The notes beneath the pieces were generated by a model, which saw only the letters and a list, made by a program, of their open reading frames with translations, made no database searches and was not told where the DNA came from. From a virus: 25,325 nucleotides of DNA. Each line of letters begins with the position of its first letter. Position 1 is the stretch's first letter. Shown here piece by piece: positions 1,075-24,186 of the stretch. The translations under genes were made by a program, and so were the position numbers. The stretch is taken from IMG/VR virus record IMGVR_UViG_3300032213_000052, positions 1 to 25,325 of that record. One strand, given 5' to 3'.

Positions 1075-2427
1075 TTACGCTTTCAATAACGCAATTTCAG
1101 CGGCTTGAGCGTCAACTTTTGCGCTAAGTTCTTTTACAGAGTTAACTAATAGATATACTAATTCTGTACTGTCAAAATGTTTTAAGGCAGTACGCTCTGC
1201 GTCATTTGGCCTTAATTTAATGTTATTTATTTTAATAGTATCAGGGAGAATTTGCTCAATTTCGTCAGCAATAACGCCAATGGCTTTATTACCATCAATA
1301 CTATTTGCTAATCCGTTAAACTCAAAGTTTTTAATATTAACTTGGTTTAATTCAGTCAAACCTTTTGTATATGGTGCAATGTTCTTTTTAATTCTAGAAT
1401 CTGAAGCAATAATCCAAGCTGTTGTAGAGCCTTGTTTGTAACAATCATTTGCGCCAGTATATAAAGTATCACTTGTAGTAATTTGTAAATTACCAGCGCC
1501 ACTACTCATAATGAGTCCTAAAGCGGTGCTACCGTCCCACGCACCGCCCGAAGTATATAGTACTCCGTTGCCTGCAGTATTTAATTGCAAAGATGATGGA
1601 GATAATCCTGATGAACTTCCGCTATAACTAACGCTTATTCTTTGATCGCCAATAGATGTGCCTGTTGCTGTTATTGCGCCAGAACCTGTCAATGTATTTG
1701 CAACATTTGTATATACACCATTGGTAACGGTAGTTGCGTTAGTTGCATTGGTTGCGTTTGTTGCGTTAGTTGCTGTAGACGCTGTAGCGGCATTACCACT
1801 AATAGAAATGCCCCATGTGCCAACAGCACCTGTACCAGTTAATGTAGGAGCATAAGTACCAATATTGCTTGTAGTAATAACAGTTGCACCGCCAGCGTTA
1901 TAAGGGGTATACCCTAATGCAGTAGTAACATCACCTGAAGTAAGAGTAACTACACCTGATCGAGTGTTAAAGCTAGTAACACCTGAAGAAATAGCAGTAA
2001 TAGCAGATTGCACAAAAGCTGTAGTAGCAATTTTTGTAGTGTTATCAGAAGAAGGAGTTACTGTAGGGGCTGTACATACTCCAGTCAATGCAGCAGAAGT
2101 AGCGGTTAAAGCTAAAAATCTACCATTCTTAGGGTTAGCAGCACCAATAGGTGCGCCATCAATCGTGCCGCCAGTAATGGTAGGGTTAGAAATCTGATTA
2201 ACTGTAGCTACATCGCTAGAAGCTGTGCCATCGGCAACGCCTGTAATCTTATTGTTACCCATCTGCAAAATGCCAGTCATACCCGATGAACCGTCTGTAG
2301 CAACAGAGCCAGTTAAGGCTGTGGCTACATCGCTAAATGTAGTATTAGCCCAGGTTGATGTAATAGTTGTGCCTGTAACAACAGGATTACCTGCTGGTAG
2401 GGTGTAAGTTCCGCTTGAGCGTGGCAT
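1075..2427 (-). CDS. Tail fibre protein with C-terminal S74 intramolecular chaperone domain
   Basis: A 450-aa predicted host-recognition fibre. The N-terminus (SSGTYTLPAGNPVVTGTTIT, then STWANTTFSDVATALTGSV) is a virion-attachment module common in environmental phage fibres. The middle (about 80-330) is Thr/Ala/Gly/Ser-rich low-complexity beta sequence with short tandem repeats. The C-terminus (about 340-450) is a peptidase S74 / intramolecular chaperone domain: SDSRIKKNI with Ser342 and Lys347 at the S and S+5 positions used for self-cleavage in this family, then IGVIADEIEQILPD, and a final coiled coil (VKELSAKVDAQAAEIALLK). Known S74 domains drive trimerisation and are then cut off at the Ser. 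The RBS is AAAGGA upstream of an ATG. It is separated from the ejection gene before it by 48 nt, one of the few real gaps in the window. Confidence 0.88.
   Translation of the reverse strand: MPRSSGTYTLPAGNPVVTGTTITSTWANTTFSDVATALTGSVATDGSSGMTGILQMGNNKITGVADGTASSDVATVNQISNPTITGGTIDGAPIGAANPKNGRFLALTATSAALTGVCTAPTVTPSSDNTTKIATTAFVQSAITAISSGVTSFNTRSGVVTLTSGDVTTALGYTPYNAGGATVITTSNIGTYAPTLTGTGAVGTWGISISGNAATASTATNATNATNATNATTVTNGVYTNVANTLTGSGAITATGTSIGDQRISVSYSGSSSGLSPSSLQLNTAGNGVLYTSGGAWDGSTALGLIMSSGAGNLQITTSDTLYTGANDCYKQGSTTAWIIASDSRIKKNIAPYTKGLTELNQVNIKNFEFNGLANSIDGNKAIGVIADEIEQILPDTIKINNIKLRPNDAERTALKHFDSTELVYLLVNSVKELSAKVDAQAAEIALLKA
1733..1777 (-). repeat. Tandem 9-nt repeat inside the fibre gene
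   Basis: Four near-identical 9-nt units (plus strand GTTGCGTTA, GTTGCATTG, GTTGCGTTT, GTTGCGTTA) and one degenerate unit (GTTGCTGTA). In the coding frame they give a repeated Ala-Thr-Asn tract. Because the unit is a multiple of three, copy-number change would keep the frame and alter fibre length. Confidence 0.8.
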
Positions 2428-5537: not shown

Positions 5538-5909
5538 TTAAAACCCTCTTTCTTGTGCTGCAAGCATCCTGCTTTGTGGCGAATACATATCTGTTCCGTA
5601 TTGCTGTGAAATACCATATTGGGTCATTGGGTTGTAAGTGCTTAAACCACCCATTTGTGCATCTTGAGCATTTATACCTGCTTGGTCGGGTTTTTTACGC
5701 AACATTGCTGCCAAAGCCATTTGATTTCCACCACCTTCTTTACCAATTTGACCAGCAGCTTGCGTTAATGCTTGACCTTGTTGCATTGCCGCATTTTGGG
5801 CTGCTTGTTGCGCTGCAATGTTTTGAAAAACAGGCATTAAACCTTGCTGTTCTTGCGGATTCATTGGCTGCATATAAGGGCTTACATTAGATATATATGG
5901 ATTAGGCAT
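5538..5909 (-). CDS. Small Gln/Met/Ala-rich virion-associated protein (unknown)
   Basis: A 123-aa protein rich in Gln, Met, Ala and Pro, beginning MPNPYISNVSPYMQPMNPQE. Residues about 25-65 form an Ala/Gln helix (NIAAQQAAQNAAMQQGQALT), followed by Gly-rich and Tyr-rich turns. Composition is like that of its two larger neighbours, suggesting membership of the same injected or internal virion group. The start overlaps the 451-aa gene's end by 8 nt, implying coupling, and its stop is 2 nt before the next ATG. No named family is recognised. Confidence 0.55.
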   Translation of the reverse strand: MPNPYISNVSPYMQPMNPQEQQGLMPVFQNIAAQQAAQNAAMQQGQALTQAAGQIGKEGGGNQMALAAMLRKKPDQAGINAQDAQMGGLSTYNPMTQYGISQQYGTDMYSPQSRMLAAQERGF

Positions 5910-7257
5910 TTAGAACTCCGTAATTAACCATTTTGTAACCGTCTGTATTGGTAATAACCGCTTCAGGTTGCACCAATTCAACTTCTTGTGCCATAACACC
6001 AACAAACTTACCGTGACCAGCCAAAGGATGATCTTTAAATTCTGCTTTGTATTCGTATTCATATACTGGTAAACCATTAGGCAACCAATGAATCTGTTTA
6101 ATGTTTTCTTTAGTGCGTATGTCTGACATCATTGCAGCACCACCAAGCTGAAATATTCCTTTATTAAGGCTGTCTTGGGCGGCTTGTTTAGCATTAAAGT
6201 CACCCATTTGGGCGTTATAGCCCATTTGTGATGCGCCCAAAATGTCAGCACCACTTGTTGTAGCTTGTTGCGGAGCATTAATAAATGTTGGGTTTTGAAC
6301 TTGTGCGCCAGTACGCAATGCACTTAAAGTATTAAGCGGCATATTGTAGTTAGTCATAGCCTGATTATAGGCTTGCTGATTTGCGGCATTAGTCAAATTA
6401 GCGTTTTGTAATTGGTTACCAAACCCTTGTGCTAATGCAGCGTTGTTCATTTGTGTGCCAGCTAATTGATTTGCAAAACCTTGTTGGTTTAAAGCATTGT
6501 TAAAGCCAAGGTTAGCTAATTGATTAGCGTTCATTTGGTTTAATGCTTGATTACCAAACTGACCAGCCGCCACATTTTGATTAAACATCTGATTTTGTAC
6601 GCTTGCACCTTGTAGCTGTGCTTGTGTAAGCAAATCATTAGTTCTTTGACCTTGTTGCATCATTGCTCGGTTATAGGCTTCTGTACCAGGCGCAATACCT
6701 TGATTAGCTAATTGAGCCTGTAATCGTTCTTCACTTTGTTGAATCTGTGGCTGTAAACGCTGATTAATTAACGCAGTTGCAGCATCCCAGCCTTCCATGC
6801 CAGTACCACCAACCTTAGTCTGTAATTGAGGATTGCTACCCATTTGGCTAAATTGTGGGCCTTGTCCTACTTGATTGTAGGTAGGTGTTGCAAGGTTAGA
6901 TTGCAATGCTGGCAAATTAGGGTTAAATGGCTTACCCATTGTGTTTTGCACATCTCGCAACGCAGCATTTGTAGTCTCACCTAAACCTAAAGAAGAACGA
7001 TTTTGGTTATTTAAAAGCTGTTGCCCAACATCACTAAGAGATGTAGTGGCAGTCCATACAGGGTTACCTTCTGCATCTTTGGTTTGTGTGTAATTTAAGT
7101 TGCCGTAAGGAGTTACTTGGTTTACACGATTGGCAGCGGCAGCGGCTTGAGCAGCGGCTAAATTCCCTGCTGCTGTTTCTTGTGCTGCAGCCCTGTAATC
7201 AGGTGCGGCTGGCGCACTTGGAGGAGGCCCTAACCCTAAAAATCCACCACCACCCAT
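5902..7257 (-). CDS. Asn/Gln-rich ejection-type protein with C-terminal S74 domain
   Basis: A 451-aa protein. The N-terminus (MGGGGFLGLGPPPSAPAAPD) leads into an Ala-rich helix (21-43) and YGNLNYTQTKDAEGNPVWTA, a motif repeatedly seen in phage internal virion proteins. Residues about 160-200 include ANQGIAPGTEAYNRAM, also typical of this group. Residues about 200-330 are Asn/Gln/Ala-rich quasi-repeats (NQALNQMNANQLANLGFNN). The final 75 residues are a compact S74/chaperone-like domain: SDIRTKENI with Ser378 and Lys383 (S+5), PVYEYEYK, FVGVMAQEVE and a terminal GYKMVNYGVL. The RBS AAGGAG lies in the GNAT stop region. S74 domains usually end fibres, so this could instead be a fibre or tail-tip protein; the first two thirds look like ejection proteins. 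Confidence 0.72.
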   Translation of the reverse strand: MGGGGFLGLGPPPSAPAAPDYRAAAQETAAGNLAAAQAAAAANRVNQVTPYGNLNYTQTKDAEGNPVWTATTSLSDVGQQLLNNQNRSSLGLGETTNAALRDVQNTMGKPFNPNLPALQSNLATPTYNQVGQGPQFSQMGSNPQLQTKVGGTGMEGWDAATALINQRLQPQIQQSEERLQAQLANQGIAPGTEAYNRAMMQQGQRTNDLLTQAQLQGASVQNQMFNQNVAAGQFGNQALNQMNANQLANLGFNNALNQQGFANQLAGTQMNNAALAQGFGNQLQNANLTNAANQQAYNQAMTNYNMPLNTLSALRTGAQVQNPTFINAPQQATTSGADILGASQMGYNAQMGDFNAKQAAQDSLNKGIFQLGGAAMMSDIRTKENIKQIHWLPNGLPVYEYEYKAEFKDHPLAGHGKFVGVMAQEVELVQPEAVITNTDGYKMVNYGVLNA

Positions 7258-10474: not shown

Positions 10475-10975
10475 ATGTCTGAAACTAATTTTACCCTAAC
10501 AAAAGAGTATTTACATCAAGTTTTTGAATACAAAGACGGACATTTGTATTACAAAGAAAAAACTGGTCAACGATCAAAAATTGGCAAAAAAGTTGGTTCT
10601 TTAGCAAAAACTGGTTATTTTTCTACCACTATTAAAAAAAGACCATATTTAATACATCGTTTAATTTTTTTAATGTTTTATGGTTATTTACCTAAACAAG
10701 TAGATCATATAAATAATAATAGAGCAGACAATACTATTAAAAATTTAAGAGAAGCGGATAACACTACAAATCAATGGAATGTGAAAATTCAAAAAAACAA
10801 CACCTCAGGCTATAAAAATGTTAGTTGGGTTAAGAAAGATAAGCGTTATAAGGTTGAAATTGCTGTAAATAAAAATAAAAAATACTTAGGGTATTTTGAA
10901 GATTTAGAACTTGCCGATCTAGTAGCCCATGAAGCTAGGGACTTATATCACGGCAAGTTTGCTAGGCACAATTAG
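10475..10975 (+). CDS. HNH homing endonuclease with AP2 DNA-binding domain
   Basis: A 166-aa free-standing homing endonuclease and the only plus-strand gene. The nuclease part (about 50-105) has the HNH_3-type pattern: IHRLIFLMFYGYLPKQVDHI with Asp77-His78, then NNNRADNTIKNLREA with the conserved NL, and a following Asn-containing helix. The AP2-like DNA-binding part (about 110-150) reads SGYKNVSWVKKDKRYKVEIA followed by KYLGYFEDLELA. Such genes cut related genomes lacking them and are copied in by repair. The RBS is GGAG six bases before the ATG. Its last 4 nt overlap the end of the oppositely oriented 209-aa gene. It is visibly more AT- and Lys/Asn-rich than neighbours, consistent with transfer. 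No interrupted gene or intron is evident. Confidence 0.9.
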   Translation: MSETNFTLTKEYLHQVFEYKDGHLYYKEKTGQRSKIGKKVGSLAKTGYFSTTIKKRPYLIHRLIFLMFYGYLPKQVDHINNNRADNTIKNLREADNTTNQWNVKIQKNNTSGYKNVSWVKKDKRYKVEIAVNKNKKYLGYFEDLELADLVAHEARDLYHGKFARHN

Positions 10976-12012: not shown

Positions 12013-12993
12013 TTAAGAACCAGTCAAGATGCCTTGCAATGAAGCATTGGAGCAAGTTAAGTTACCTGCCCAACCATACAGCTTCACGATTGCATCTTGG
12101 TTAATAGACTGACGCTCACCACCGATTGGAACAAAATTACGCTCTTTGTGTGGGCGGAAGAAGATGTAATCGGTGTTCAAGAGATACATATACAATGCGT
12201 TCTCTTGTGCGCCAATACCACCACCTAATACCACATCAGCAGACATACCGCCACCGTAGAACTTGAGGGATGCAAAACCTGCTGCACCTTCGTCTACACC
12301 AGCAATACGCTGAATTGCTTGCAAAGAAGCTACATAACGCTGATACAAAGTGTTACCAGCAATAATAAGGTCAACCTTATCATTACCACGAACAGATTTA
12401 ATAGCAGCAGTAGTCATAGCAGCTTGGATTAATGCGGAAGAATCAGCACCTGTTGTTGCCTGGTTACGCCAAAATTCCCAGTTTGCACGGTTAATACCAC
12501 CGTAAGTACCGCTTGAAGGTGAAGTAGAAACAGCAGCGGCTAGGCCTGTGATGTTCTTACCACCGTTGCCTGTACCGTCACCATAAAGGTCACCCGAAAT
12601 GCGGTTCAACAAGCGAGCTTCGGAAACTTGCATACGACCATCTAACAAGTCGATGATTGCCTCTTTGCTGCTGTTTTGGAGCATTTCTAAGCCTGACATT
12701 GTTACAGAATCAGCATACTGAGTAATGCTGAACTGAGCAGCCGAGATTGGGCTATCAGGAGTAATGTTCAGCACTTCATAGCCGCTATACGAGTTAGCGT
12801 TATTGGTTGCTGGGTCGTTGTACATAATTTCTTCAAGGATTACGTTACCGCCTGAAAATGGGCGTACGTTACCTTTGCTGTTTAGGCGTTGAAGAATTGC
12901 GTTGTTTTGAGTTAAGTTGTCTGCCAATACTCCGCTACGACTTTGAATGGTGGTAGCGATAATATCGGTAATTGCGCTATTTGCGAATGCCAT
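12013..12993 (-). CDS. Major capsid protein
   Basis: A 326-aa protein directly after the scaffold gene, with HK97-fold style sequence. Key segments: the N-terminal arm MAFANSAITDIIATTIQSRS, the NAILQRLNSKGNVRPFSGGN strand region, YADSVTMSGLEML and the helix DLLDGRMQVSEARLLNRISG. A glycine-rich loop follows (GDLYGDGTGNGGKNITGL), then the central A-domain-like KVDLIIAGNTLYQRYVASLQ, and a conserved end YMYLLNTDYIFFRPHKERNF with GERQSINQDAIVKLYGWAGN. The late 'QDAIVKLYGWAGNLTCSNAS' is characteristic of this phage capsid group. RBS AAAGGA precedes the ATG. Length fits a small HK97-like coat without an internal scaffold domain, consistent with the separate scaffold gene. Confidence 0.92.
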   Translation of the reverse strand: MAFANSAITDIIATTIQSRSGVLADNLTQNNAILQRLNSKGNVRPFSGGNVILEEIMYNDPATNNANSYSGYEVLNITPDSPISAAQFSITQYADSVTMSGLEMLQNSSKEAIIDLLDGRMQVSEARLLNRISGDLYGDGTGNGGKNITGLAAAVSTSPSSGTYGGINRANWEFWRNQATTGADSSALIQAAMTTAAIKSVRGNDKVDLIIAGNTLYQRYVASLQAIQRIAGVDEGAAGFASLKFYGGGMSADVVLGGGIGAQENALYMYLLNTDYIFFRPHKERNFVPIGGERQSINQDAIVKLYGWAGNLTCSNASLQGILTGS

Positions 12994-13014: not shown

Positions 13015-14106
13015 TTAAACCCGACCACCCTCTGCATCGGCTAAATTAGCCATTAACAGCGAGCGTCTATCCTTTGCATCTGTCTTAGACACTTGACCGC
13101 TAGGAGTAGCTGATCGTGGACTAACAGCAGTTGCTTTGGCTTTAGCTACTTGCTGTGCCTTAGACGCTTGGGTACTGGCCGATTTCAGGAGTTTGTCCTG
13201 TTCTAGCTTGTACGCTTCGTCATTCATACGCACCGCTTTGGCATAAGCCGATTCTAGGTCTTGGGCTAAACCTCGCTCAAGTAATTGAGCCATATCTTCC
13301 CTTACCATCTCAAAGTGCGGAAACCGCTCCTTGTTACTACTAACCCGACTAATTTCTGAGGTCAATCGAGCATTTTCTTCCTGTTCCCGAATCGCTGACA
13401 GTTGCTGAACTTGTTGCTGTGTTGCTTGAAGTTGCTGCATTAACTGCTGTTGATACGGGTCTACATACGCCTGTTGTGGCGCTTGTAAACTATCTTGATT
13501 TAATTGTATTCCATAATCTTGTGCAAGTCTATGAAACATCTGCACTTTTTGATCATACGGTGCTTTGGTCAAAATCATGTGCGCCCGACCAAGATTATTA
13601 ATCCAAGCTACTGGGTGAATTCCTTGTGATTGCAGTTCAGGAACAAAAGGCCCAATGGCTTCGGTTAATTGTCTTGCGTTGTCTGCTTCCGCTTTATAGG
13701 CAGAAACACCCTTTTTGTACTCTGCCTCACGCTGGTTAGCGTATTCAGCAAACTTAGCAAACTCCTCTTTATCTAAGGGTTTACCCTCCTGCATCTTGTT
13801 CCATACCTCTACATACTCTTTTTTCCAAGTAGTAGGGCGTTTTATTTCTTCTTCAGGAACATCACTAGCTTCTCCCACCAAGTCAGGTTCTTCAGCACTA
13901 TCTTGATCGGTGCTGGCTTCTTGGGCCTTATAACGGCCTTTTTCGTCACGGTCGTTGTTTTCTTCAGCGTTGGTTTCTTGACTGGCGTTTTCGGTTTGGA
14001 TTGGATCGTCATTTACTTCAATCTCCTTTTCAGTAGGTGCTTCAAGTGTGCCATCTTCGGCTTGTTCTAAGGCTGCTTCAAGTAGTTCTCTGCGGTCATC
14101 AGACAT
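13015..14106 (-). CDS. Capsid scaffolding protein
   Basis: A 363-aa, highly charged, helical protein immediately upstream of the capsid gene. Residues 1-95 are acidic and disordered-looking, rich in Glu, Asp, Asn and Gln (EIEVNDDPIQTENASQETNA). A conserved block follows (KRPTTWKKEYVEVWNKMQEG), a pattern repeatedly seen in podoviral scaffolds, then long amphipathic helices. A Gln-rich coiled coil spans about 215-245 (YQQQLMQQLQATQQQVQQLS). The C-terminus is basic and Ser/Lys-rich before an acidic end (RRSLLMANLADAEGG). Such proteins line the inside of the procapsid and leave during maturation. No protease domain is visible. Confidence 0.87.
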   Translation of the reverse strand: MSDDRRELLEAALEQAEDGTLEAPTEKEIEVNDDPIQTENASQETNAEENNDRDEKGRYKAQEASTDQDSAEEPDLVGEASDVPEEEIKRPTTWKKEYVEVWNKMQEGKPLDKEEFAKFAEYANQREAEYKKGVSAYKAEADNARQLTEAIGPFVPELQSQGIHPVAWINNLGRAHMILTKAPYDQKVQMFHRLAQDYGIQLNQDSLQAPQQAYVDPYQQQLMQQLQATQQQVQQLSAIREQEENARLTSEISRVSSNKERFPHFEMVREDMAQLLERGLAQDLESAYAKAVRMNDEAYKLEQDKLLKSASTQASKAQQVAKAKATAVSPRSATPSGQVSKTDAKDRRSLLMANLADAEGGRV

Positions 14107-14114
14107 GGTTGTTC

Positions 14115-14492
14115 CTATCGGTAGTTAAGTTTGGAGTAAGTAATTTCAGCAATCTGCCGTTTACGGGCTTCTTGCTCTTTGCGGCTAAATTCAATGGTTT
14201 TAGGCTGCATTGGCACATCATTGCCTATTTCTACGCAGTTATTGCGCTTTAGGTTCTCACGGTGCTTAGAACGGCTAGAAACCCATGTGCCGTCAGCCAT
14301 AGAGATATGCCCTGGAATGTCGGGCATTACCATTGGAACTTCTCTAGACTTCATAGCTACCTTATCCAACCAAGATGCTTTGGCGGCTTTTAAGCCAATG
14401 GTAGGTGTCCACCATTCTAGGAAGAATTCTTCGTCAGTTTGTTTAACTTGAACATGGTTTCCTTCGGAATATCCGCATTTTGGGCAAAGCAT
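14115..14492 (-). CDS. Conserved small phage protein with N-terminal CxxC motif
   Basis: A 125-aa protein of unknown function. The N-terminus MLCPKCGYSEGNHVQV has a single CPKC knuckle like half of a zinc ribbon; no second CxxC follows, so metal binding would need dimerisation or His18. The centre carries DIPGHISMADGTWVSSRSKH followed by RENLKRNNCVEIGNDVPM, a motif (x-DG-x-WVxSRSxHRxxLKRxxCxExGND) that recurs in phages next to scaffold and portal genes. The C-terminus is basic and helical. It forms a TAATG junction with the glycosyltransferase stop and precedes the scaffold by 8 nt, suggesting a head-assembly association. Confidence 0.65.
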   Translation of the reverse strand: MLCPKCGYSEGNHVQVKQTDEEFFLEWWTPTIGLKAAKASWLDKVAMKSREVPMVMPDIPGHISMADGTWVSSRSKHRENLKRNNCVEIGNDVPMQPKTIEFSRKEQEARKRQIAEITYSKLNYR

Positions 14493-15400
14493 TACATTCT
14501 CCTTATGATTTCAGGTAATTGTTCGTATTCATTTGGTCTAAGTAGACAAACACTGTCGTACCAACGGGCATTTTTCCACCGCCAGCATACAAATTCTTCT
14601 TTAGGTAGCAAAACTATGCATTTAACCCCTAATGCACCTGCTAAATGGGCTGTTCCCGTGTCAACCGTTACTACGCCTTTCATGGCTTTCATGTGTTTAG
14701 CGGTAATTGACCAGTCTTTCTTCCAGCCATCGTTAGGAAGCGGTCTAAATAAGCCATCAGTTTCAGGGTTTAGGCTATATGCATCGTCACCTACTAGACT
14801 TTCCATGTGTTCAGCGGAAATAGACTTAATCCAATGCAATGTGCCTTTGCTGGCTGACCAATTAACCCCTATTTTTCTAGGGATATTGCTTGCTTCGGCT
14901 TCAAAATAGCCTTCTGAGCCTACAACCTTCTTTTTATTAATGGGAAACAGGGCTTTTGCATAGGGCATTGCACAATCTATGTAGTACGGCAGGGACATAG
15001 AGCCTATCCACAAGTCACATTCGGCTGCTGGGCCTTCTTCTGTCAAATTGGTTAACTGGTCAATACATTCCATTTGACCTAAGACTTGAAATAAATTAGG
15101 CACAGTCAGGACAACCAGCTTTTTAGCCCCTAAAACCTTTAAAAATGGCAGAAATCTAGCATATTGGAATATATCGCCAAAGCCTTGTTCCATCTGAACC
15201 ACAATAGATTTCCCTAAAAGGGATTCACCTTGCCAGGCTTTAGTTGTTTTGGGCAACTTGTCGTATGGAATCTGCTGATTGCCAAGAATGGCTGGATGCC
15301 AGCGATATTCAAATAGCCTAAAGCCAGCAGAATATCTACCAGCGTGTAAATTGTCGTAAGCTAATTTGTATTGTTGGTGTGGGCTTAAAGTAGTAGTAAT
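14492..15400 (-). CDS. GT9-like glycosyltransferase domain protein with TPR-type N-terminus; start uncertain
   Basis: Predicted glycosyl transfer protein. The body resembles the GT9/heptosyltransferase-like domain attached to TPR repeats in many bacterial and phage proteins: WQGESLLGKSIVVQMEQGFG, then DIFQYARFLPFLK, a central NWSASKG segment, and the signature VTVDTGTAHLAGALGVKCIV. The open frame continues upstream as YKLAYDNLHAGRYSAGFRLF followed by EYRWHP, the conserved 'G.Y..G...(Y/F)E(W/Y)RW' linker of this family. Yet between the in-frame TGA at 15410-15412 and this linker there is no ATG, GTG or TTG; the first canonical start is TTG at 15256, which removes the linker. I place the start at ATT 15400, six bases after GAGGA. 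Alternatives are ATT 15403, a -1 frameshift from the preceding gene, or a sequence error. The substrate is unknown. Confidence 0.72.
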   Translation of the reverse strand: MTTTLSPHQQYKLAYDNLHAGRYSAGFRLFEYRWHPAILGNQQIPYDKLPKTTKAWQGESLLGKSIVVQMEQGFGDIFQYARFLPFLKVLGAKKLVVLTVPNLFQVLGQMECIDQLTNLTEEGPAAECDLWIGSMSLPYYIDCAMPYAKALFPINKKKVVGSEGYFEAEASNIPRKIGVNWSASKGTLHWIKSISAEHMESLVGDDAYSLNPETDGLFRPLPNDGWKKDWSITAKHMKAMKGVVTVDTGTAHLAGALGVKCIVLLPKEEFVCWRWKNARWYDSVCLLRPNEYEQLPEIIRRM

Positions 15401-16050
15401 AATGCTTCCTCATCGTCTAAATCTTGCAAGCGTCTTGCCTCAAATATAGCCATTTCAGCTTGAATCTGAACTAGCTGCTGTCTAAGCATTGCGCCTTGCA
15501 AAAGTTCTTGTTCCTGTTTAACAAGATTAGCGATGATATTGTCATATTTCGTTAAGTCTGACGGTATATCAGCACTAACTTCTTGATTGGATTGTACTTT
15601 ATTTTTCTTGCGTTTTGGTGCTGGGTCAATTAATTCTTTGATGCTAGCTTTACGATCAGCCTTAACTTTTTTAAGCGCATCTAATTTGTCTTGTTCAGCC
15701 TTTTGTTTTGCAGCCTGTAATTCTTTGTACCGCTTGTATTCTTTCTTTGTAAAGCCGTCATCACCACCTAGATTTGTGGGGGTTGGGATGCCAACAAAGC
15801 CAGTAATATTAGCTGTGTCGTTGCCGTCTGTAGCAGAAATAGTGCCTGTAGATGGCACAAGAACTGCGCCTGTAATATTGGCTGTATCGTTACCATCCGT
15901 TGCCGAAATAGTCCCTGTAACAATAGGGTTAGCTACCGTACCTGTAAGGGTAGCAGTATCGTTACTATCGGTTACATTAATCGTTCCTGTAATTGCAGGA
16001 AGTTGTATATCCGATATGGGATTAGTCGAAAACGGTGTAAAACCTAACAT
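15385..16050 (-). CDS. Repeat-containing coiled-coil virion-type protein (unknown)
   Basis: A 221-aa protein with three parts. Residues 1-20 (MLGFTPFSTNPISDIQLPAI) are an N-terminal signature seen on assorted environmental phage structural proteins. Residues 21-90 hold three tandem 23-24-residue repeats whose core is TGTISATDGNDTANITG. Residues about 95-221 are Lys/Glu/Gln-rich helix (KKEYKRYKELQAAKQKAEQD) with a basic PKRKKNK patch and an end LDDEEALLLLL. It begins directly after the stop of the previous gene. Its end overlaps the open frame of the glycosyltransferase-type gene. A structural or fibre-associated role is inferred; no family name is certain. Confidence 0.6.
   Translation of the reverse strand: MLGFTPFSTNPISDIQLPAITGTINVTDSNDTATLTGTVANPIVTGTISATDGNDTANITGAVLVPSTGTISATDGNDTANITGFVGIPTPTNLGGDDGFTKKEYKRYKELQAAKQKAEQDKLDALKKVKADRKASIKELIDPAPKRKKNKVQSNQEVSADIPSDLTKYDNIIANLVKQEQELLQGAMLRQQLVQIQAEMAIFEARRLQDLDDEEALLLLL
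15781..15990 (-). repeat. Three tandem 23-24-residue protein repeats
   Basis: Residues 21-44, 45-67 and 68-90 of the 221-aa protein. Copies two and three share TGTISATDGNDTANITG exactly in protein but differ at nine of 51 bases, all synonymous. Copy one is divergent (TGTINVTDSNDTATLTG). Confidence 0.85.
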
Positions 16051-16284
16051 TTAAGCCTCGTTAATTATTGCTGTAGATGTTTCTTTATCAATTGTCATTG
16101 TGCCTTCGCAGACAACATTCCAATCTTCACTACTGCCTTCTCTTTCACTAGCGGATGGCACGTTTAACTTAAAGTTCTTAAACAAGTATTCTTTATCGCC
16201 TTCAAATACACGCCACACGTGTTCCATTGACCCCCGCCCTTGCTGACCACGGCTTTTGTTAAAGCGGATGCGATATTTATTCAT
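16051..16284 (-). CDS. Conserved small phage protein (unknown function)
   Basis: A 77-aa protein: MNKYRIRFNKSRGQQGRGSM, then EHVWRVFEGDKEYLFKNFKL and a C-terminal half with SEDWNVVCEGTMTIDKETST. The pattern 'YRIRFNKSRG..GRG...HVWRVFE..KEYL' is shared by a small family I recall from cyanophage-like and other aquatic phages, with no known function. It overlaps the oxygenase stop by 4 nt (ATGA), and its own stop abuts the next ATG, so it is part of the same translational unit. Mixed beta strands with one DW/WN core suggest a compact globular protein. Confidence 0.65.
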   Translation of the reverse strand: MNKYRIRFNKSRGQQGRGSMEHVWRVFEGDKEYLFKNFKLNVPSASEREGSSEDWNVVCEGTMTIDKETSTAIINEA

Positions 16285-16976
16285 ACAATCTCGGCTGCAG
16301 AAGCAATTGAAATTTGTTTGGATTGTTGAATTGTTAAATTAAAATGCACAAATTTAATAGGTTTATCGGCAGCATGACGACCAAATGAGTGTGGCAACCA
16401 AGAATTAGTAAATAAAAACATTCCAGGCTCAGGCACAAAGTTAATCATGTTACTAGCAGGCGTGGCATTAGATGGATTTGATTCAGGTAAATTAATCTGC
16501 ACCTTGCCAGCTTTGGGGTCGTGGAATACAACCCTTGAGCAGTTCTCTGGGGTTTCTAAAAAGTAAAAACCAATTATTTGAGAGCCATAGCCATGAATGT
16601 GCTGTTCCATTAACGAATGCTTGTGGTGCTCTTGTGTCCACATCTCGGTAAACTGAGTACTAAACTGATCCATTGCATAACCTTGACCTTGCAATATGTT
16701 CCAAGCAGTCTGCCCAACGTACTTTGAGAACTCCTCAACACGAGGGTCATCATAAAAATTATCAGTCATCACCACAGGGTAGATGTCATTAATTTCTTTT
16801 TGCTCTTCTTTGCGCTTTGCCAGGTACTCATCAGAAACCGTTTTAACAGCCTCTAAAAACTCTGGCTTCCTGACAGAATACACAATGCTTGGAAAGTAAT
16901 GGTATTGCTCTAATTGGTTCTCAATAGGCTCTTGAATTACTCCATCAGCATCAATTATTTCGACCGTTTGGCTCAC
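16281..16976 (-). CDS. 2-oxoglutarate/Fe(II)-dependent oxygenase (2OG-FeII_Oxy_5 type)
   Basis: A 231-aa predicted dioxygenase that would use 2-oxoglutarate, O2 and Fe(II), most likely hydroxylating a protein or small molecule. The double-stranded beta-helix core runs from about 105 to 215. It includes HIHGYGSQIIGFYFLETPEN (candidate iron ligand His126 or His128), VVFHDPKAGKVQINLP (Asp153 in the usual DP motif), and PGMFLFTNSWLPHSFGRHAA (His196, distal ligand; Arg200 or a later basic residue for 2-oxoglutarate). The end KFVHFNLTI is typical of this family. It starts with GTG, supported by AAGGA five bases upstream. Neighbours are fibre and glycosyltransferase-type genes, so a virion-protein substrate is plausible but unproven. 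Confidence 0.85.
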   Translation of the reverse strand: MSQTVEIIDADGVIQEPIENQLEQYHYFPSIVYSVRKPEFLEAVKTVSDEYLAKRKEEQKEINDIYPVVMTDNFYDDPRVEEFSKYVGQTAWNILQGQGYAMDQFSTQFTEMWTQEHHKHSLMEQHIHGYGSQIIGFYFLETPENCSRVVFHDPKAGKVQINLPESNPSNATPASNMINFVPEPGMFLFTNSWLPHSFGRHAADKPIKFVHFNLTIQQSKQISIASAAEIV

Positions 16977-16988
16977 TTTGTTCCTTAT

Positions 16989-17369
16989 TTATGTCGGCGG
17001 GTTGTATACCCAAAGACAGGCAAATTCATCAAACGTAACGTACTGCTCATCTTCTGGTGGCACGATAGGTTTGGGATTAATAAACGCATTACGGGTTGGA
17101 TCATAAGACCAGTCTATACCAGCGTAATTTTTTCTGAACGCTAATGATTGATCTGGGCTAACCTCACTAGTACCTGGAACATAATAAATACCAGCCCTAG
17201 TGTTATAACTAGTTTGCGCCCAAATCGTGTTTGACCCGTATAAATTCTTTAAAAAATCTATGCCAAGCTGTTCTACACGCTGACCTTGTTCGTTTTCCAT
17301 TACGGAATTTTCTAAACATAAGACTTGCAAAACAATATTGTTTGAGTCCAATTCTGCAAAGTGAGCCAT
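16989..17369 (-). CDS. Conserved phage protein near tail fibres (unknown function)
   Basis: A 126-aa protein. I chose the ATG at 17369, which forms a TAATG junction with the adhesin stop and has GGAG upstream; the longer form (ATG 17384) has no RBS. The sequence MAHFAELDSNNIVLQVLCLE, then GIDFLKNLYGSNTIWAQTSY and AFRKNYAGIDWSYDPTRNAF belongs to a widespread phage family ('MAHFA.LD..N.V..V', 'GI.F...L.G', 'FRKNYAG.G..YD..R.AFI.P.P') that accompanies tail-fibre genes in aquatic phages. Function is unknown; association with adhesins suggests a virion or assembly role. The C-terminal CLWVYNPPT aromatic end is typical. Confidence 0.72.
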   Translation of the reverse strand: MAHFAELDSNNIVLQVLCLENSVMENEQGQRVEQLGIDFLKNLYGSNTIWAQTSYNTRAGIYYVPGTSEVSPDQSLAFRKNYAGIDWSYDPTRNAFINPKPIVPPEDEQYVTFDEFACLWVYNPPT

Positions 17370-18613
17370 TATTGGAATCTCCATTTAATTACAACAATAC
17401 CTGATCCACCTGTCCCTGCGCTTCCACTAAAGGTAGCTGCGCCACCACCGCCACCGCCTCTGTTGGCTGCACCTGATTGACCGTTACCGCCGCAATTGCC
17501 GCCAAAGCCAGGTGATCCTGCATTTCCACCACCACCAGAACCTCCAGTACCAGCAGTTGCACCACTACTAGATGTTCCAACTCCAGTTCCGCCACCGCCA
17601 CCTGCATAAGTTACAGAAGTTCCCGTTATTGAACTAGCTTGACCAGAACCGCCATTACCACCATTTGGTGACCCAGGGAAATTACTACCGCTTGCAGCAC
17701 TGCCAGATCCGCCTTTTCCACCGCCGCCGCCAGCAGAGTTATATCCAAAACAACAACAGGCACCACTAAAGCCAGCGCTGCCAGATCCTCCACTAAAGCC
17801 TTGTCCGCTTACACCAGCGCCACCCGCTACTCCGCTAGGTGTTCCAGAAAAACTTGCTCCACCACCACCGCCAGACCCACCAGGTTTGCCTGTGGAACCA
17901 TTTGCAATAGAGTTTGTGCCACCACCACCCGCTGCTATTATTAAACTGCCTATACTAGAATCTGAACCATTAAATGATTCTGTATTATTTCCACTTGCGC
18001 CGCCGCCTCCAACAGTAATTGTGTATGTTTGAGCAGTAACTGTTAAGCCCGATCCTGATAGCATACCGCCAGCACCGCCGCCGCCTACAATTCGACCATC
18101 ACTTCGTTTGCCACCACCCCCACCACCAGCTACTACTAAATATTCAATAGAGTTTGATTCAGAAGAGCCTGAACCAACCGAGTTAACAGTAAATGAACCA
18201 GAACCGTTAAATACAGCAATTTTGTAGTTACCGCTTGTTGTTTCAGTTGCGCCTGATGAAGACGCAACCATATAGGAAACAGGAGATTCTGTTGTTATTG
18301 AATTACTTGATGCGCTATTAGGACTATTTCCTATAGCATTAGTAGCAAATACAACAAATGTGTAAGATGTTGATGCGGTTAAACCGCTAACTGTAATAGT
18401 TCCAGACCCAGACTGGCTTAATGTTCCTGTAATTCCGCCTGGCGAAGAAACAGCAGTATATGATGTGATTGGCGAACCGCCATTACTTGCAGGAGCAGTA
18501 AACGAAACTGTAGCAGTTGTTTGCCCTGTTGCTGTTGCCGTTCCAATAGTAGGAGCATCTGGCACTCTTGCGCCACCTAAACTAGCAACTACTCCTTGTA
18601 GTATTCCAGCCAT
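17369..18613 (-). CDS. FnIII plus polyglycine-rich tail adhesin
   Basis: A 414-aa candidate receptor-binding protein. The ATG at 18613 makes a TAATG junction with the fibre stop; a GTG at 18643 is an unlikely alternative. A short helix (MAGILQGVVASLGGARVPDA) leads to a fibronectin type III domain (about 19-110) with SNGGSPITSYTAVSSPGG and the ITVSGLTASTSYTFVVFATN signature. After a linker and a beta strand pair (YKIAVFNGSGSFTVNSVGSG) comes a long glycine-rich region (about 160-410) with many GGGG runs, a Cys triplet (GACCCFGYN) and the family ending GSGIVVIKW. Polyglycine-rich modules of this type, as in the gp38 adhesin of phage S16, can pack as polyglycine-II helices displaying variable loops. 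Adhesin role is inferred from family style. Confidence 0.8.
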   Translation of the reverse strand: MAGILQGVVASLGGARVPDAPTIGTATATGQTTATVSFTAPASNGGSPITSYTAVSSPGGITGTLSQSGSGTITVSGLTASTSYTFVVFATNAIGNSPNSASSNSITTESPVSYMVASSSGATETTSGNYKIAVFNGSGSFTVNSVGSGSSESNSIEYLVVAGGGGGGKRSDGRIVGGGGAGGMLSGSGLTVTAQTYTITVGGGGASGNNTESFNGSDSSIGSLIIAAGGGGTNSIANGSTGKPGGSGGGGGASFSGTPSGVAGGAGVSGQGFSGGSGSAGFSGACCCFGYNSAGGGGGKGGSGSAASGSNFPGSPNGGNGGSGQASSITGTSVTYAGGGGGTGVGTSSSGATAGTGGSGGGGNAGSPGFGGNCGGNGQSGAANRGGGGGGAATFSGSAGTGGSGIVVIKWRFQ

Positions 18614-20187
18614 TAGGTTAACCCTGTACCTGAAATAATCCACTCAGTAGATGTAATCTTAATTGCTGTAGCAATACCGTTAGCCGCTAATGTTCTATTT
18701 CCAGTAGTACCAGCACCAGCTAAACGCATTGTGTCGGACGTAATAGCAATCGTAATTACGCCAGCGCCGTTCTGGTTAATGAAGGTAACTGCCGTACCAA
18801 TAGGAAACGCAACGCTAGAGTTAGCAGGGATAGTCCATGTTCTAGCTGTTGTATCGGCAGATGGATGGAAAATTTGTTCGCCTGAATCGCCCAATACTAA
18901 TGTGTAGGCAGCAGATTGACTATTTTGTGGAATAGTTAAATAACCAACAGCATTTGTACCATCTACGGTGCAGTTAGATAAATTGCCTGAAGTGGGAGTT
19001 CCAAGAACAGGAGTTACAAATGTTGGAGATGTTGTTAAAGCAACGACTGTGCCGCTACCGCTAGTTGTGTAACTTGTTCCCCATGCAGAGCCAGTAGAGT
19101 TAGCAATTCCAGCACCAGGGTAAACAGTTACGCCTGTATTTGCAATGGTAAAACTAGGATATGTACCGCTAGTGCTAATGCCTGTTCCTGCGGTTAATAC
19201 AACCGTTTGGTCGGGGGCAGTATTGGTAATGGTAATCGTACCGCTACCAGTAATAGGGCTACCTGATACGCTAATGCCTGTTCCAGCACTTGCAGCTACG
19301 GATGTTACTGTACCTGTAGTTGGTGTAGTCCATGTAGGTGCGCTTGTGCCTTGACTTGTTAATACTTGACCACTTGTGCCGACTGCACTTAAAGCTAAAG
19401 CAGAAGCTGTTGAATATGGTACTGAACCAGCAGAAGCGGTCAAGCTTGCGTTTGTGCCGCCACGATTTAATGCAATATTATTGCCATTCCAAGTTGCTGA
19501 AGTAATAGAACCTGGGTAATCTAAAGTGTTAGTAGACCAAGATACATTTGCTGGGGCAAAGTCATGTCTATCCCAAGAACCTGCTGAAGTTGCGTTTGAC
19601 AACAAATTGATTCTAACAACCCCACCGCTAGGGACAGAAACAACCAAAGTGTTTGAATTATTGTTTACTGTAATTGCACCGCTACTTTGGTTATTGTCAA
19701 ATTCAAAAATTACACCATTTGTTAATGTGGTTGCATCAGGAAGTTTAAAAGTCTGACCCCCAGAACCTGTAACCGTATATCTGCGAACAGAAGCAACAGT
19801 TAGAGTTGTTGTTGTTCCTGTTGCTGCAACATTTGTATACGAATCATCAAATGCATTAGCTGCTACATTTCCATTGGCATCTTGATATACAGCCTTACCA
19901 GCAGGATAATCGCCAAATACATATAAAGTGCCAGTAAAGTTGACTGCTGCACCTGCGTTACTTGATGCCAATACAGTAGTTCTTGCTAAAGTTCCAGCAC
20001 CTACCGTACCAATACCCACTTCCCAATCTGAACCGCCAGCGTTATAAATGGTGTAATAAGTAGTGTTTCCATTGCCAACTGCGGCTGAGAATGTCTGAAA
20101 CTGCGTAACAGCACCAGCAAGCGTTAGTGTCCCAGTACCTGTCGTGGTACTCGTTTCTTGAACTCTGTCTTTTAGAACAAGTGCCAT
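18613..20187 (-). CDS. Tail fibre protein with N-terminal virion-attachment module
   Basis: A 524-aa fibre. The N-terminal module (about 1-110), beginning MALVLKDRVQETSTTTGTGT and including NTTYYTIYNAGGSDWEVGIG and LARTTVLASSNAGAAVNFTG, is a common first domain of phage fibres. A second block (about 130-215) resembles TLTVASVRRYTVTGSGGQTF, a 'VRRY.TGSG.QT..LPDA' capsid-fibre repeat. Then come Ser/Thr/Gly repeats such as VAASAGTGISVSGSPITGSG. The C-terminus (about 415-524) contains LGDSGEQIFHPSADTTARTW and FPIGTAVTFINQNGAGVITI, a beta-helical 'IP.NSSV.FPIGT.I..' end domain. It follows the 134-aa gene by 8 nt and overlaps the adhesin by 1 nt. Target receptor unknown. Confidence 0.82.
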   Translation of the reverse strand: MALVLKDRVQETSTTTGTGTLTLAGAVTQFQTFSAAVGNGNTTYYTIYNAGGSDWEVGIGTVGAGTLARTTVLASSNAGAAVNFTGTLYVFGDYPAGKAVYQDANGNVAANAFDDSYTNVAATGTTTTLTVASVRRYTVTGSGGQTFKLPDATTLTNGVIFEFDNNQSSGAITVNNNSNTLVVSVPSGGVVRINLLSNATSAGSWDRHDFAPANVSWSTNTLDYPGSITSATWNGNNIALNRGGTNASLTASAGSVPYSTASALALSAVGTSGQVLTSQGTSAPTWTTPTTGTVTSVAASAGTGISVSGSPITGSGTITITNTAPDQTVVLTAGTGISTSGTYPSFTIANTGVTVYPGAGIANSTGSAWGTSYTTSGSGTVVALTTSPTFVTPVLGTPTSGNLSNCTVDGTNAVGYLTIPQNSQSAAYTLVLGDSGEQIFHPSADTTARTWTIPANSSVAFPIGTAVTFINQNGAGVITIAITSDTMRLAGAGTTGNRTLAANGIATAIKITSTEWIISGTGLT

Positions 20188-20195
20188 GATTTACC

Positions 20196-20600
20196 TTAAC
20201 TGTTAGCTCGGATGATTGTTCCTGCTGTAATGCTGACTGTTTGCGCTGAAGCAACGGTAGTTGTATTTAGGTTCAAATCTGAACCCGATGTACCTACTGA
20301 GCCATCCATTACAACTGTTGTGCCGTCAGATTTAACTATACGAAAAAATGATGCTGTGCCTGAAGCTACTGCCGTTCCGCTAGTTACCGCACCTAGTGTG
20401 ATAGTTCCATTGGAATCTGTACCAAAGCCGCCAGCAATCGTTAAGCTAACTAATAGAGTTTGACTAACAATAGCAGTATTAGCATTAGCTGGCTGTGAGC
20501 CATCATATAAACGGATGATTGAACCTGTGCCAGCGTAGGTAATTAAACCTTGTTGCTGGGCATTTCTAGTGCCGTTTGAGTATTTAAGGTTTGATGGCAT
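20196..20600 (-). CDS. Small predicted virion protein following the portal gene
   Basis: A 134-aa beta-rich protein, Ser/Thr/Gly/Ala-rich and poor in charge. It contains NGTRNAQQQGLITYAGTGSI followed by IRLYDGSQPANANTAI, a pattern found in small phage proteins near portals and fibres, then LLVSLTIAGGFGTDSNGTIT and a repeated-turn C-terminal half. TAATG junction with the portal stop indicates coupling. The fold looks like a jelly-roll or decoration module. Whether it belongs to the head or the fibre complex is unclear. Confidence 0.6.
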   Translation of the reverse strand: MPSNLKYSNGTRNAQQQGLITYAGTGSIIRLYDGSQPANANTAIVSQTLLVSLTIAGGFGTDSNGTITLGAVTSGTAVASGTASFFRIVKSDGTTVVMDGSVGTSGSDLNLNTTTVASAQTVSITAGTIIRANS

Positions 20601-22834
20601 TATCGAACTCCTACAATTTTACCGCTTTCATCACGAACAACGGTCTTAGGTTGATTTAGTCTTTCGTGGATAGCGGCAATCATCTGCGCTAACTGTTGAT
20701 TTTGTTGCTGTAAATTCTGAACTATTGGTTCTAGCGGATGCTGTGGCATATTGTATCCCATCATGTCTTGAATTAATTTTGCTGTTTCTACATTGCGAAT
20801 GTAGGCTTCTGACCCATCATCCAAACCTTGTGAAATCCGTACACTTTCGATTTTAGTCGCATTATCAAGATAAGCCAAGAGAATGTCCCTGTTAGTGGTC
20901 ATTTCAGCTTCTTTGGTATTGCGTTCTTCTTCCAGCTTGAATTTCAGTTGGTTTTCTTGTGCTTGGTACTCTTGTTTAGCCTTCTCAAGCTCATTTTGGG
21001 CTTGGAACTTCTGTATCTCTAACTGAGTTTGGGCTTGCAACTTCTGCTGATCGGCTTCAATCTGCATCTGCATCTTCTGAATTTCAGGTGTAGGTGGCTT
21101 TGGTTGGCCCTCTGCTGCCTTGGCTTGCTGACGGAATCGATCTGCTGTTTCGTCAATCAATCCTTCCATGCCTTTACCAGCCTTAAACGCAGTTACGCCA
21201 AACTTGAGCATCTCCATAAGCAATGGGGTAAGTTCAGGGGATTGGGTGGCTACAGGCAATGCGGTCTGCATAAACTGGCTTACAGCACTTAAAAACTCTA
21301 CCCTGTCTTGCTTTTCTTGTTGCTCATCCTGATAAATCATGGAATCGCTAGTTACTTCAATACGGAAGTTCTTAGCTGGTTCATCTTTCAGGAGAGCAAG
21401 GGCTTGTGGGATAAGTGCTTGATCTTGTGGGGATAATTGCATTGCACCGCTAATCTTAACGATAGTGTCATCGGTAAAGTGCTGGCAAATAATCTGTGCT
21501 TTGATCTGCAATAAGGCGGTAGCAAAGTTCACTACATCGTGCTGCATAGTCTTTAAACGCCCTGAAGCGTTGTTTGACTTAATAATCTGTGCGCCTAGGG
21601 TTTCATTGGGGTCGCTTTGTCCACGCTGGATGTCAGCAATGCCCATGATTTCGTAGATTTGACCCTTAACCTGCTCCATAGCTTGATAAGCCATCATCAA
21701 ACCTTGGGCGATTGGGGCAATGTCCACTAGGTTAATAGCCCCTGCCATACCTTGTTTCTCAGCAAAAGCAGCCCAGTTCTTAACTGGCAACAATGTGTTG
21801 TTTTCGCCTTCGGTAAACAAACGGGCAAGGCTAGGTTCTGCCGCATCGTAAACGCCCCGTACTTTAAGGGCTTGAATAAAGCCATCAATACGATCTGCAA
21901 GGGTATCTAATTGACGGGCTTGGTCTTGGTACAGTACAAAGTCAGGAACAGGAATCAAGCTGTCTGTTGTAAGCGTTGAAAACATGGGTTTTGGGCAGGG
22001 CCAAAAGTTCTCAAGCTGCAATGGATCATCACGAACATCGAGAACCTTACCCATTGACTTAGATAGCCAAATGACTTGACCAGAAGTTTTATCCCAAATT
22101 TCATAAATCAAGGCTTCCCGTGCGCCTTCGCCCATCTTTTCGTTAAATGACTTTGAAGTTTCAGGTTTGGTATCAAGCGGTATTTTGCCGCCTAATTCTT
22201 CACCAAAGCGTTCAACAAGGGCAGGGCGTTCCATATAGACTTTGCGCCATACTGCGGTTACTTCTTCCCAGGTTCGGGCTATGGTAAGTCCAAAGTCACG
22301 CCAGTACACATAATCTACAGGGGCGCACTCATACTCAATGCGCTCTTGATCTTCACGGTAAATGCCGCCTTCGGTTTCAGCTTCGTCAGTATCTTCAGTT
22401 ACTTGCAAGCCATCTTCAGGCATATCTTCAGCTTCAGCTTGACCAACGATATGGGGCTCATAACGCACCCAAGCCGTACCACGCCCACCAAGTAAACGAT
22501 CTTGAACCGCTTGCTTCATTGCGCTGGCATAGTCACCATAATGTTCAATTTCGTACTCTAAAGCCCGTTCTAGCATCATAGAAGCGACACGGCCTATTGG
22601 GTCGTTATCACGGAATCTACGGGTTACATCGGGTCTTGGCAGTCTTGCAAATACCGCAGGGGTAATGGTTTGGACATTGCTCCACAAGATATTAAATTTG
22701 GCTTGTGGGTTGTTACGGCTACGGGACTCATCACGGTAACGCTTTACGATCTTATCGGCACGACCTTCCCATTCTTTAAATGTACGCTCGTACTGGGCGA
22801 TGCAGTTGTACCAATCTTCGTATGTATGATCCAT
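20600..22834 (-). CDS. Portal protein
   Basis: Forms the dodecameric DNA-entry ring at one capsid vertex. I start at ATG 22834, with AGGA seven to eight bases upstream and directly after the terminase stop, giving 744 aa; the longer frame (ATG 22876) would overlap terminase by 40 nt with no RBS. The N-terminal half has YEDWYNCIAQYERTFKEWEG, FNILWSNVQTITPAVFARLP and the RFRDNDPIGRVASMMLERAL segment typical of large P22-like podoviral portals, then an acidic insert (EDMPEDGLQVTEDTDEAETE). The C-terminal region (about 580-650) is a long Gln/Glu coiled coil (QMQIEADQQKLQAQTQLEIQ), corresponding to the barrel/crown region of such portals. Confidence 0.92.
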   Translation of the reverse strand: MDHTYEDWYNCIAQYERTFKEWEGRADKIVKRYRDESRSRNNPQAKFNILWSNVQTITPAVFARLPRPDVTRRFRDNDPIGRVASMMLERALEYEIEHYGDYASAMKQAVQDRLLGGRGTAWVRYEPHIVGQAEAEDMPEDGLQVTEDTDEAETEGGIYREDQERIEYECAPVDYVYWRDFGLTIARTWEEVTAVWRKVYMERPALVERFGEELGGKIPLDTKPETSKSFNEKMGEGAREALIYEIWDKTSGQVIWLSKSMGKVLDVRDDPLQLENFWPCPKPMFSTLTTDSLIPVPDFVLYQDQARQLDTLADRIDGFIQALKVRGVYDAAEPSLARLFTEGENNTLLPVKNWAAFAEKQGMAGAINLVDIAPIAQGLMMAYQAMEQVKGQIYEIMGIADIQRGQSDPNETLGAQIIKSNNASGRLKTMQHDVVNFATALLQIKAQIICQHFTDDTIVKISGAMQLSPQDQALIPQALALLKDEPAKNFRIEVTSDSMIYQDEQQEKQDRVEFLSAVSQFMQTALPVATQSPELTPLLMEMLKFGVTAFKAGKGMEGLIDETADRFRQQAKAAEGQPKPPTPEIQKMQMQIEADQQKLQAQTQLEIQKFQAQNELEKAKQEYQAQENQLKFKLEEERNTKEAEMTTNRDILLAYLDNATKIESVRISQGLDDGSEAYIRNVETAKLIQDMMGYNMPQHPLEPIVQNLQQQNQQLAQMIAAIHERLNQPKTVVRDESGKIVGVR

Positions 22835-22836
22835 GT

Positions 22837-24186
22837 TTATATCCTGCGATTGACTATTTTTGGAGTTTCTTTCCACATTTCATTCAGGGTCACATCCGTT
22901 TGCCCGACATGAAGTCCTCTAATCCTTGTATCAGCGAGGATAGGAATGTCCTCGTCTTTCCATACAATGCTGAGATAGCGCATCGCATCGCTTGAATGGC
23001 TTGTCCAATCGTGTTTCGGGCGATCCCTAAATACTTTTTTATCATCATCCCATTCCCGTTGATATTGTCGTAAACATTCAATCAAATCTTCACACTTATT
23101 ATCAAACCAAGCACGGGTTAATGCAAGCCTTGTTGCTTGAATTCCATCCTGTAATGACAGATTTGGAACGATTTTTAGGTGTTTTAGGTCAATTTTTGCA
23201 GCAATTTGCTCAATTATACTCTTTCCACCACTTGCTAATGTTTTGGCTCTAGCGTCATGAGGCAGGTAATGATAGCCATATTTGTACCCATATTCTTCTT
23301 CTTTTTGGATTATTAGCCCCGTATAAAACGGCACGGCTTGACCGTTAGATGAGTGGTGATCGAGTATGCGTATCTCCCCATATACCACTTGAAACCAAAT
23401 AATTGATGTACTGTCATTGAACCCCAAGTCCCAAGCAGTATGACAAGGGAACATTGGATCATAGTCAATGGTAGTAATGCGCTCTAAGTCCGTGATTCTA
23501 CGCATTTCTTGCCCGTAGTACGCCCCAATGATGGCAGCTTCAAACGAGCATAGAAACTCTTGTTCGTACTGGTTATCAGACATAGTAGCCTGTGCATCCA
23601 GCAATTCAGCTTCAGGCAGCAAGCCTGATTGATCTGCTCTTAAAGTCTTTACATACCAATTAGGGCTTTTTTGGGCTTCGTTGTATATCTCATAAAAAGC
23701 ATTGTGGCCCTTTGGCGTACCAATAAAGGTAGCCCAGCCCCGTCTATCTGTAAGCAATGGGCGCACAATCTCGCCCCATAGTCTAGGTTTCATGTCGGCA
23801 TATTCATCTAGCACTACGCCATCTAGGTATAAACCCCGTAGGGCATCAGGATTATCAGCACCAAATAGCCTGATCTTTGCCCCATTAACTAATTCTACCC
23901 ATAACTCAGATTGATTGGCTTTAACTATGGCTGGCTCTGCAAACTTAAGCAGGTAATCCCAAGCAATGTTTTTAGCCTGTGCATAGTACGGTGCAATGTA
24001 AGCGTAACGGGCATCAGGCTTGTTTTCTGTGACTGCCCTACGAATAGTGTCGCAGATTGTAGCTACAGTTTTACCTGCCCTGCGGTGACAGACTAATACA
24101 GCCCAGCGTTGTTCCCGTCTATGAAAGTCTAGAAACGCATCCCTAGCCTTATACGGGTATTCGTATCGCTTTACTAACTCTTTCAA
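22837..24186 (-). CDS. Terminase large subunit
   Basis: ATP-driven DNA packaging motor with headful or site-specific nuclease. A 449-aa protein with all expected motifs: Walker A CHRRAGKT (33-40); Walker B LDGVVLDEYAD (121-131) with the catalytic Glu128; coupling motif FIGTPKG (154-160). The RNase H-like nuclease domain follows with acidic residues in TAWDLGFNDST (Asp253), ILDHHSSNG (Asp277) and HDWTSHSSDAMRYL (Asp400), plus YLPHDARAKT. The start overlaps the small subunit by 4 nt (ATGA). Length is normal for a podoviral TerL. Function confident. Confidence 0.96.
   Translation of the reverse strand: MKELVKRYEYPYKARDAFLDFHRREQRWAVLVCHRRAGKTVATICDTIRRAVTENKPDARYAYIAPYYAQAKNIAWDYLLKFAEPAIVKANQSELWVELVNGAKIRLFGADNPDALRGLYLDGVVLDEYADMKPRLWGEIVRPLLTDRRGWATFIGTPKGHNAFYEIYNEAQKSPNWYVKTLRADQSGLLPEAELLDAQATMSDNQYEQEFLCSFEAAIIGAYYGQEMRRITDLERITTIDYDPMFPCHTAWDLGFNDSTSIIWFQVVYGEIRILDHHSSNGQAVPFYTGLIIQKEEEYGYKYGYHYLPHDARAKTLASGGKSIIEQIAAKIDLKHLKIVPNLSLQDGIQATRLALTRAWFDNKCEDLIECLRQYQREWDDDKKVFRDRPKHDWTSHSSDAMRYLSIVWKDEDIPILADTRIRGLHVGQTDVTLNEMWKETPKIVNRRI

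Follow-up and report, generated by a model that had tools for sequence, protein, structure and literature searches.

Layered gene content between portal and scaffold in an uncultured freshwater phage, and a likely AUU start for its glycosyltransferase gene

The Escherichia coli infC gene is a well-characterised case of a gene that starts with AUU (PMC5472188). Pam3 is a known case of glycine-rich phage fibres accompanied by small chaperones (PMC9608196), and pelagimyophages carry variable host-recognition clusters that include glycosyltransferases (PMC7029224). Here we describe a block of genes between portal and scaffold in a 25,325-bp window, the whole stretch analysed of uncultured virus record IMGVR_UViG_3300032213_000052. 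Its glycosyltransferase gene (GT) appears to share the non-NUG start codon AUU with infC, the gene for IF3; unlike infC, it is a phage gene that overlaps its upstream neighbour. In its glycine-rich adhesin and small protein in the chaperone position the block resembles Pam3 gp24-gp25 and S16 gp38, from which it differs in the FnIII domain, in the phrog_7759 family of the small protein, and in the 2OG-Fe(II) oxygenase and 77-residue protein (p77) encoded downstream. The GT has the GT-B fold and C-terminal DTxxAHLAGALG region in common with WaaC/WaaF and TibC, whereas its N-terminal 60 residues lie outside the fold match, and it is a phage core gene. The oxygenase shares family and conserved histidines with the PF13759/TIGR02466 oxygenases of cyanophages and pelagiphages, among which HTVC023P has a similar gene order; here, in contrast, the oxygenase has p77 as a fixed partner.

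Gene content between portal and scaffold

The window belongs to a tailed phage whose structural genes are on the minus strand (Table 1). An initial sequence-only reading had named the genes of the block, and all of them were found on that strand at the expected place; a second fibre lies elsewhere in the window. Its gene list had overlooked p77, between the oxygenase and the repeat protein. S74 intramolecular chaperone domains end two window proteins, the second fibre and the product of 5902-7257.

Table 1. Coordinates of the block, its flanks and related features in the window
Feature	Position	Strand	Basis or remark
Portal, one flank of block	20600..22876	-	phrog_12082, E 1e-175
vsp134, small virion structural protein adjoining portal	20196..20600	-	phrog_3758, E 3.6e-28
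Tail fibre fib524, variable slot	18613..20187	-	partial matches in 40/50 intervals, sizes very different
FnIII and glycine-rich adhesin	17369..18643	-	PF00041, E 3e-10; PF21722, E 2e-11; both above cut-offs
Small protein, phrog_7759 family, fibre-chaperone position	16989..17384	-	phrog_7759, E 7e-24
2OG-Fe(II) oxygenase (2OG)	16281..16976	-	PF13759
p77, 77 aa, small all-beta, oxygenase partner	16051..16284	-	gene order and model
rep221, beta-repeat and coiled-coil core protein	15385..16050	-	found in 50/50 intervals
GAGG Shine-Dalgarno-like element for GT, inside rep221 3' end	15408..15411	-	7 nt upstream of ATT
ATT (AUU), most likely start codon of GT	15398..15400	-	conservation
GT9-like glycosyltransferase (GT), 302 aa	14492..15400	-	weak PF01075 and TIGR02193 matches, GT-B fold
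p125, conserved 125-aa gene between GT and scaffold	14115..14492	-	found in 50/50 intervals
Scaffold-like protein, other flank	13015..14106	-	position and sequence character only
Major capsid gene (MCP), after scaffold	12013-12993	-	phrog_9953, E 5e-94
Second fibre with S74 chaperone domain	1075-2427		beside two small genes at 498-1072

A near-DNA search of phage records with the window gave no match. The portal was present in more than 500 viral contigs, with only about 26-34% identity to cultured relatives, and hundreds of related contigs carried the flanking genes in an arrangement that was kept wherever readable, which is more than chance would give. Phages with this block form an uncultured, freshwater group. 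A scan of genome contigs gave a single locus, in a MAG labelled cyanobacterium; in one related contig (L061, 2157-2279) an Rfam Betaproteobacteria-1 sRNA match above the cut-off hints at a betaproteobacterial host.

Gene content was counted in 50 unique complete portal-to-scaffold intervals of 3.05-6.63 kb (median 4.33). The repeat/coiled-coil protein and p125 were present in all 50 and GT in 48; fibre-like sequence was detected in 40 intervals, a phrog_7759-like gene in eight, a glycine-rich ORF in six, vsp134 in two, and the oxygenase and p77 in one each. In all six intervals with a glycine-rich ORF, a ph- or c2-type gene went with it. Among 80 further GT loci, more distant than the first set, the repeat protein was found in 77, p125 in 80, scaffold in 77 and MCP in 72. 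By these counts the repeat protein, GT and p125 are core genes of the lineage.

The sequence-only reading had taken the whole block for a single accessory cassette inserted into the head module, with the oxygenase and then GT acting on the adhesin. The genes are indeed contiguous and on one strand, and the oxygenase is linked to glycine-rich adhesins; against this, the repeat protein and GT, at 50/50 and 48/50, are set beside an oxygenase found in 1/50 intervals, and only one of 80 oxygenase loci (L161) carries this GT. The single cassette is thus largely refuted, and we regard it as very improbable. Gene order in relatives, proposed as the check, gave a split answer: the repeat protein and GT are constant core genes, and the adhesin, oxygenase and vsp134 are not. 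The expectation of variable host-binding genes held up, given the fibre-like sequences of very different sizes and the occasional glycine-rich ORFs. Comparison of the intervals establishes that the block is layered into a core, a hypervariable receptor-binding slot and an imported set within that slot. The repeat/coiled-coil protein, GT and p125 are part of the lineage's head operon; a hypervariable fibre slot lies between the portal and the repeat protein; and in this window the slot is filled by an imported glycine-rich adhesin, small chaperone-like protein, oxygenase and p77.

Elsewhere in the head genes, inserts of 214-283 nt or about 575 interrupt the MCP gene in about 28 related loci, some of them overlapping records; they sit at several codons, and few or no capsid residues are lost. 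Examples are L011 11194-11445, L061 18448-19021, L070, L075, L079 and L021. Their shared core looks group-I-intron-like; no intron family was found either by a gathering search covering six loci or by a permissive one on a single insert.

Start codon of the glycosyltransferase gene

The conserved N-terminus of GT, ITTxxxPHxxYKxAYxHLHAGRYxxGFRLFEYRWH, extends upstream of any ATG, GTG or TTG. Within GACGATGAGG of the repeat gene lies a TGA after which the GT frame is open; the fourth codon of this frame is an ATT, some 145 bases before the first conventional start codon. A start at this ATT gives a 16-nt overlap with the repeat gene in the window. The ATT was invariant in all 62 unique repeat gene-GT junctions and present at 113 of 117 unique GT loci. 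None of these 113 has an ATG, GTG or TTG before the conserved N-terminus, and a few have one late codon inside it. In 109 of them the ATT is in the standard register, usually 7 nt after GAGG; L272 and L304 are shifted with the same spacing, and L307 and L312 have a 10-nt spacer. Weaker or shifted GAGG elements or the 10-nt spacer occur in the AUU-type loci L093, L098, L112, L161, L307, L312 and L318. Of the four loci without ATT, three have ATG and the fourth is L280, where the GT frame around 641 has neither an early ATG, GTG or TTG nor the ATT element. When a second GT search was included, 97 of 181 unique loci had no NUG before the RWH anchor, and a further 17 had their sole NUG late, within the conserved N-terminal region. 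Another GT group has an ATG 31 codons before the RWH anchor, mostly overlapping the stop of the repeat gene as ATGA. A motif-only scan gave at least 80 sites, and in 68 of those listed the ATT begins a GT frame.

Two other starts were considered and rejected. The sequence-only reading had placed GT at 14492-15256 with a TTG start; the TTG at 15256 is inside the conserved domain and absent from most relatives, and the gene most likely runs instead from the ATT. The NUA codon over the repeat gene's stop has a first base that varies freely.

The element was next set against relatives with other start types. GAGG-N7-ATT was found at 90 of 98 AUU-type junctions and at none of 58 AUG-type junctions, numbers for which Fisher tests overstate independence since the junction sequences are related. 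The peptide DDE at the end of the repeat gene is common to both types, whereas its GAG codon is found in 95/98 AUU-type and 22/58 AUG-type junctions. Relatives in which GT has its own ATG or is missing mostly keep the same upstream peptide in other synonymous codons and lack the element. GAT GAT GAA CAG is found at the end of the repeat gene in L068 and L115, which lack GT, and in L016 and L087, where an HNH-like ORF separates the repeat gene from GT; in L094-like relatives with their own ATG the codons there differ as well. At invariant Asp/Glu positions within GT of AUU-type genes, the major synonym is used at only 57-92%, so that shared descent is not enough to account for the fixed junction codons; this synonym set was partly selected by the ATT, and the fair start-codon counts are 62/62, 113/117 and 97/181.

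Several junctions were observed in altered surroundings. In L551 the repeat gene keeps GAGG-N7-ATT but has p125 immediately after it and no GT, which is probably a recent GT loss. An ORF with a C-terminus like that of the window's HNH_3 endonuclease, which is encoded on the opposite strand (10475-10975, +), separates the repeat gene and GT in L016, L087 and L282, and GT there has an ATG.

Could GT instead be made as a fusion to the repeat protein through programmed -1 frameshifting in the repeat gene? GT does lie in the -1 frame with respect to that gene, the open overlap is mostly 22-25 nt, an upstream GAGG-like element could stimulate slippage, and the mean fold z is -1.3 for the 80-nt stretch following the repeat stop. 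However, an X_XXY_YYZ slippery heptamer was present in 0 of 98 overlaps, relatives with ATG make a separate GT from nearly the same N-terminus, and the GAGG-N7-ATT spacing is unchanged where the stop of the frame shifts by 3 (L272, L304). Structure in the region around the ATT is not unusual (z -0.16). The lack of a slippery heptamer and of unusual structure, with the codon controls, favours AUU initiation, and we consider frameshifting improbable.

The features of an AUU-initiated gene are therefore present, namely a conserved N-terminus without NUG and a conserved AUU with a Shine-Dalgarno-like element. Comparison of the loci shows that the conserved N-terminus of GT lacks an NUG start in this clade, and AUU is most likely the start codon of the gene. 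Ribosomes would start GT at this AUU, set by the GAGG inside the repeat gene. Given what is known of AUU from infC, GT is probably made at a low level, and the AUU start would give little of the enzyme within the structural operon. A literature search of incomplete coverage turned up no AUU-initiated gene in a phage.

The oxygenase-p77 pair and the glycine-rich adhesin

The oxygenase scored 38.3 bits against PF13759 (gathering cut-off 27) and 50.4 bits against the subfamily TIGR02466, below its cut-off of 62.5. In 17 homologues H128 and H196 are invariant and H126 and D/E153 nearly so; from family knowledge, we take H128, H196 and D/E153 to be candidate metal-binding residues. The glycine-rich domain of the adhesin scored 44.6 bits against PF21722, with a cut-off of 24.3. 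The p77 model is a confident all-beta fold (pLDDT 95.7) that matched no PDB fold (best Foldseek E 0.81; 8v3w_C, Z 2.2, rmsd 4.7, 49 aligned), and p77 has no convincing family in Pfam, PHROGs or NCBIfam. The phrog_7759 protein, though in the chaperone position, had no match among PDB sequences.

Homologues of the oxygenase, 54-89% identical, were fetched with their surroundings at 80 loci spread over many backbones. Except at L161, the fetched DNA contains neither the portal, MCP or scaffold of this phage nor its repeat protein or GT, an absence whose meaning is limited by the shortness of many of these loci. A glycine-rich ORF lay no more than two genes upstream of the oxygenase at 57 of 60 unique evaluable loci, against a background rate of 2.7% among the other ORFs of those loci, which bears out the proposed tie between oxygenase and adhesin. 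p77 directly followed the oxygenase at 54 of 60 unique loci and, in a search from p77, the oxygenase was upstream in 53 of 56 p77 loci, while 32 of 45 had a glycine-rich ORF no more than four genes away and the other 13 had none in that range. Since the pairing is stricter than the glycine-rich neighbourhood, oxygenase and p77 form a tight unit with the adhesin as a frequent neighbour. Gene neighbourhoods establish the pairing, and the pair circulates independently among unrelated phages. A search from the glycine-rich adhesin gave only six loci.

In this setting the oxygenase, with p77, may modify the glycine-rich adhesin during assembly. An auxiliary metabolic or nucleic-acid role unrelated to the adhesin, with the pair in the variable region by chance, would agree with MW202545, where the pair lacks a nearby adhesin, and with the 13 p77 loci just mentioned. 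Against it stand the glycine-rich ORFs just upstream of the oxygenase on unrelated backbones and a similar order in the marine Pelagibacter phage HTVC023P (glycine-rich protein, phrog_7759-like protein, one gene, two oxygenase genes), and we rate that role clearly below even odds, though a serious contender. The further proposal, hydroxylation followed by glycosylation, is unsupported because GT nearly always occurs without the oxygenase, and of the 80 oxygenase loci L161 alone also has this GT. A literature search, again of incomplete coverage, found no report of this oxygenase-p77-adhesin neighbourhood.

Fold, substrate and significance of the glycosyltransferase

The GT model (mean pLDDT 75.9, residues 1-35 low) aligned with WaaC/WaaF heptosyltransferases and a GT9 protein at Z 10.5-13.0, best with WaaC 2h1f_A (Z 13.0, 214 residues, rmsd 6.2), and with TibC 4rb4_D at Z 9.9 (223 aligned, rmsd 5.4); the top six Foldseek rows were GT9 proteins. 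Against PF01075 GT scored 20.1 and 19.7 bits, below the gathering score of 22, and it was below cut-off for all curated Pfam and NCBIfam families, including TIGR02193, so we label it GT9-like only. A profile search of PDB sequences gave nothing meaningful, and phage records one distant match. The modelled fold is of the heptosyltransferase GT-B type, and sugar transfer is putative.

GT may glycosylate either a constant virion protein or the host surface. That it alters a host LPS sugar to block superinfection, the virion not being its target, agrees with the nearest folds being LPS heptosyltransferases, and the glycosyltransferases of pelagimyophages have been interpreted likewise (PMC7029224). 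However, GT is a core gene in a structural operon and overlaps a structural-type gene, so that late expression is expected. TibC, which shares the fold, glycosylates a protein adhesin. We place the host-surface role only slightly short of an even chance. Our proposal for the clade, that a fixed, IF3-sensitive AUU rations a virion-modifying GT in the late structural operon, with the signal forming part of the preceding gene's 3' end, is tentative and on balance somewhat doubtful.

Non-NUG starts are very rarely documented. If true, conservation of an AUU across more than 100 related phage sequences would offer a clean natural experiment on why such a codon is retained, and usual gene callers would shorten or miss a GT that starts in this way. 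The fixed pair of oxygenase and small protein beside glycine-rich adhesins in many unrelated phages makes adhesin modification testable.
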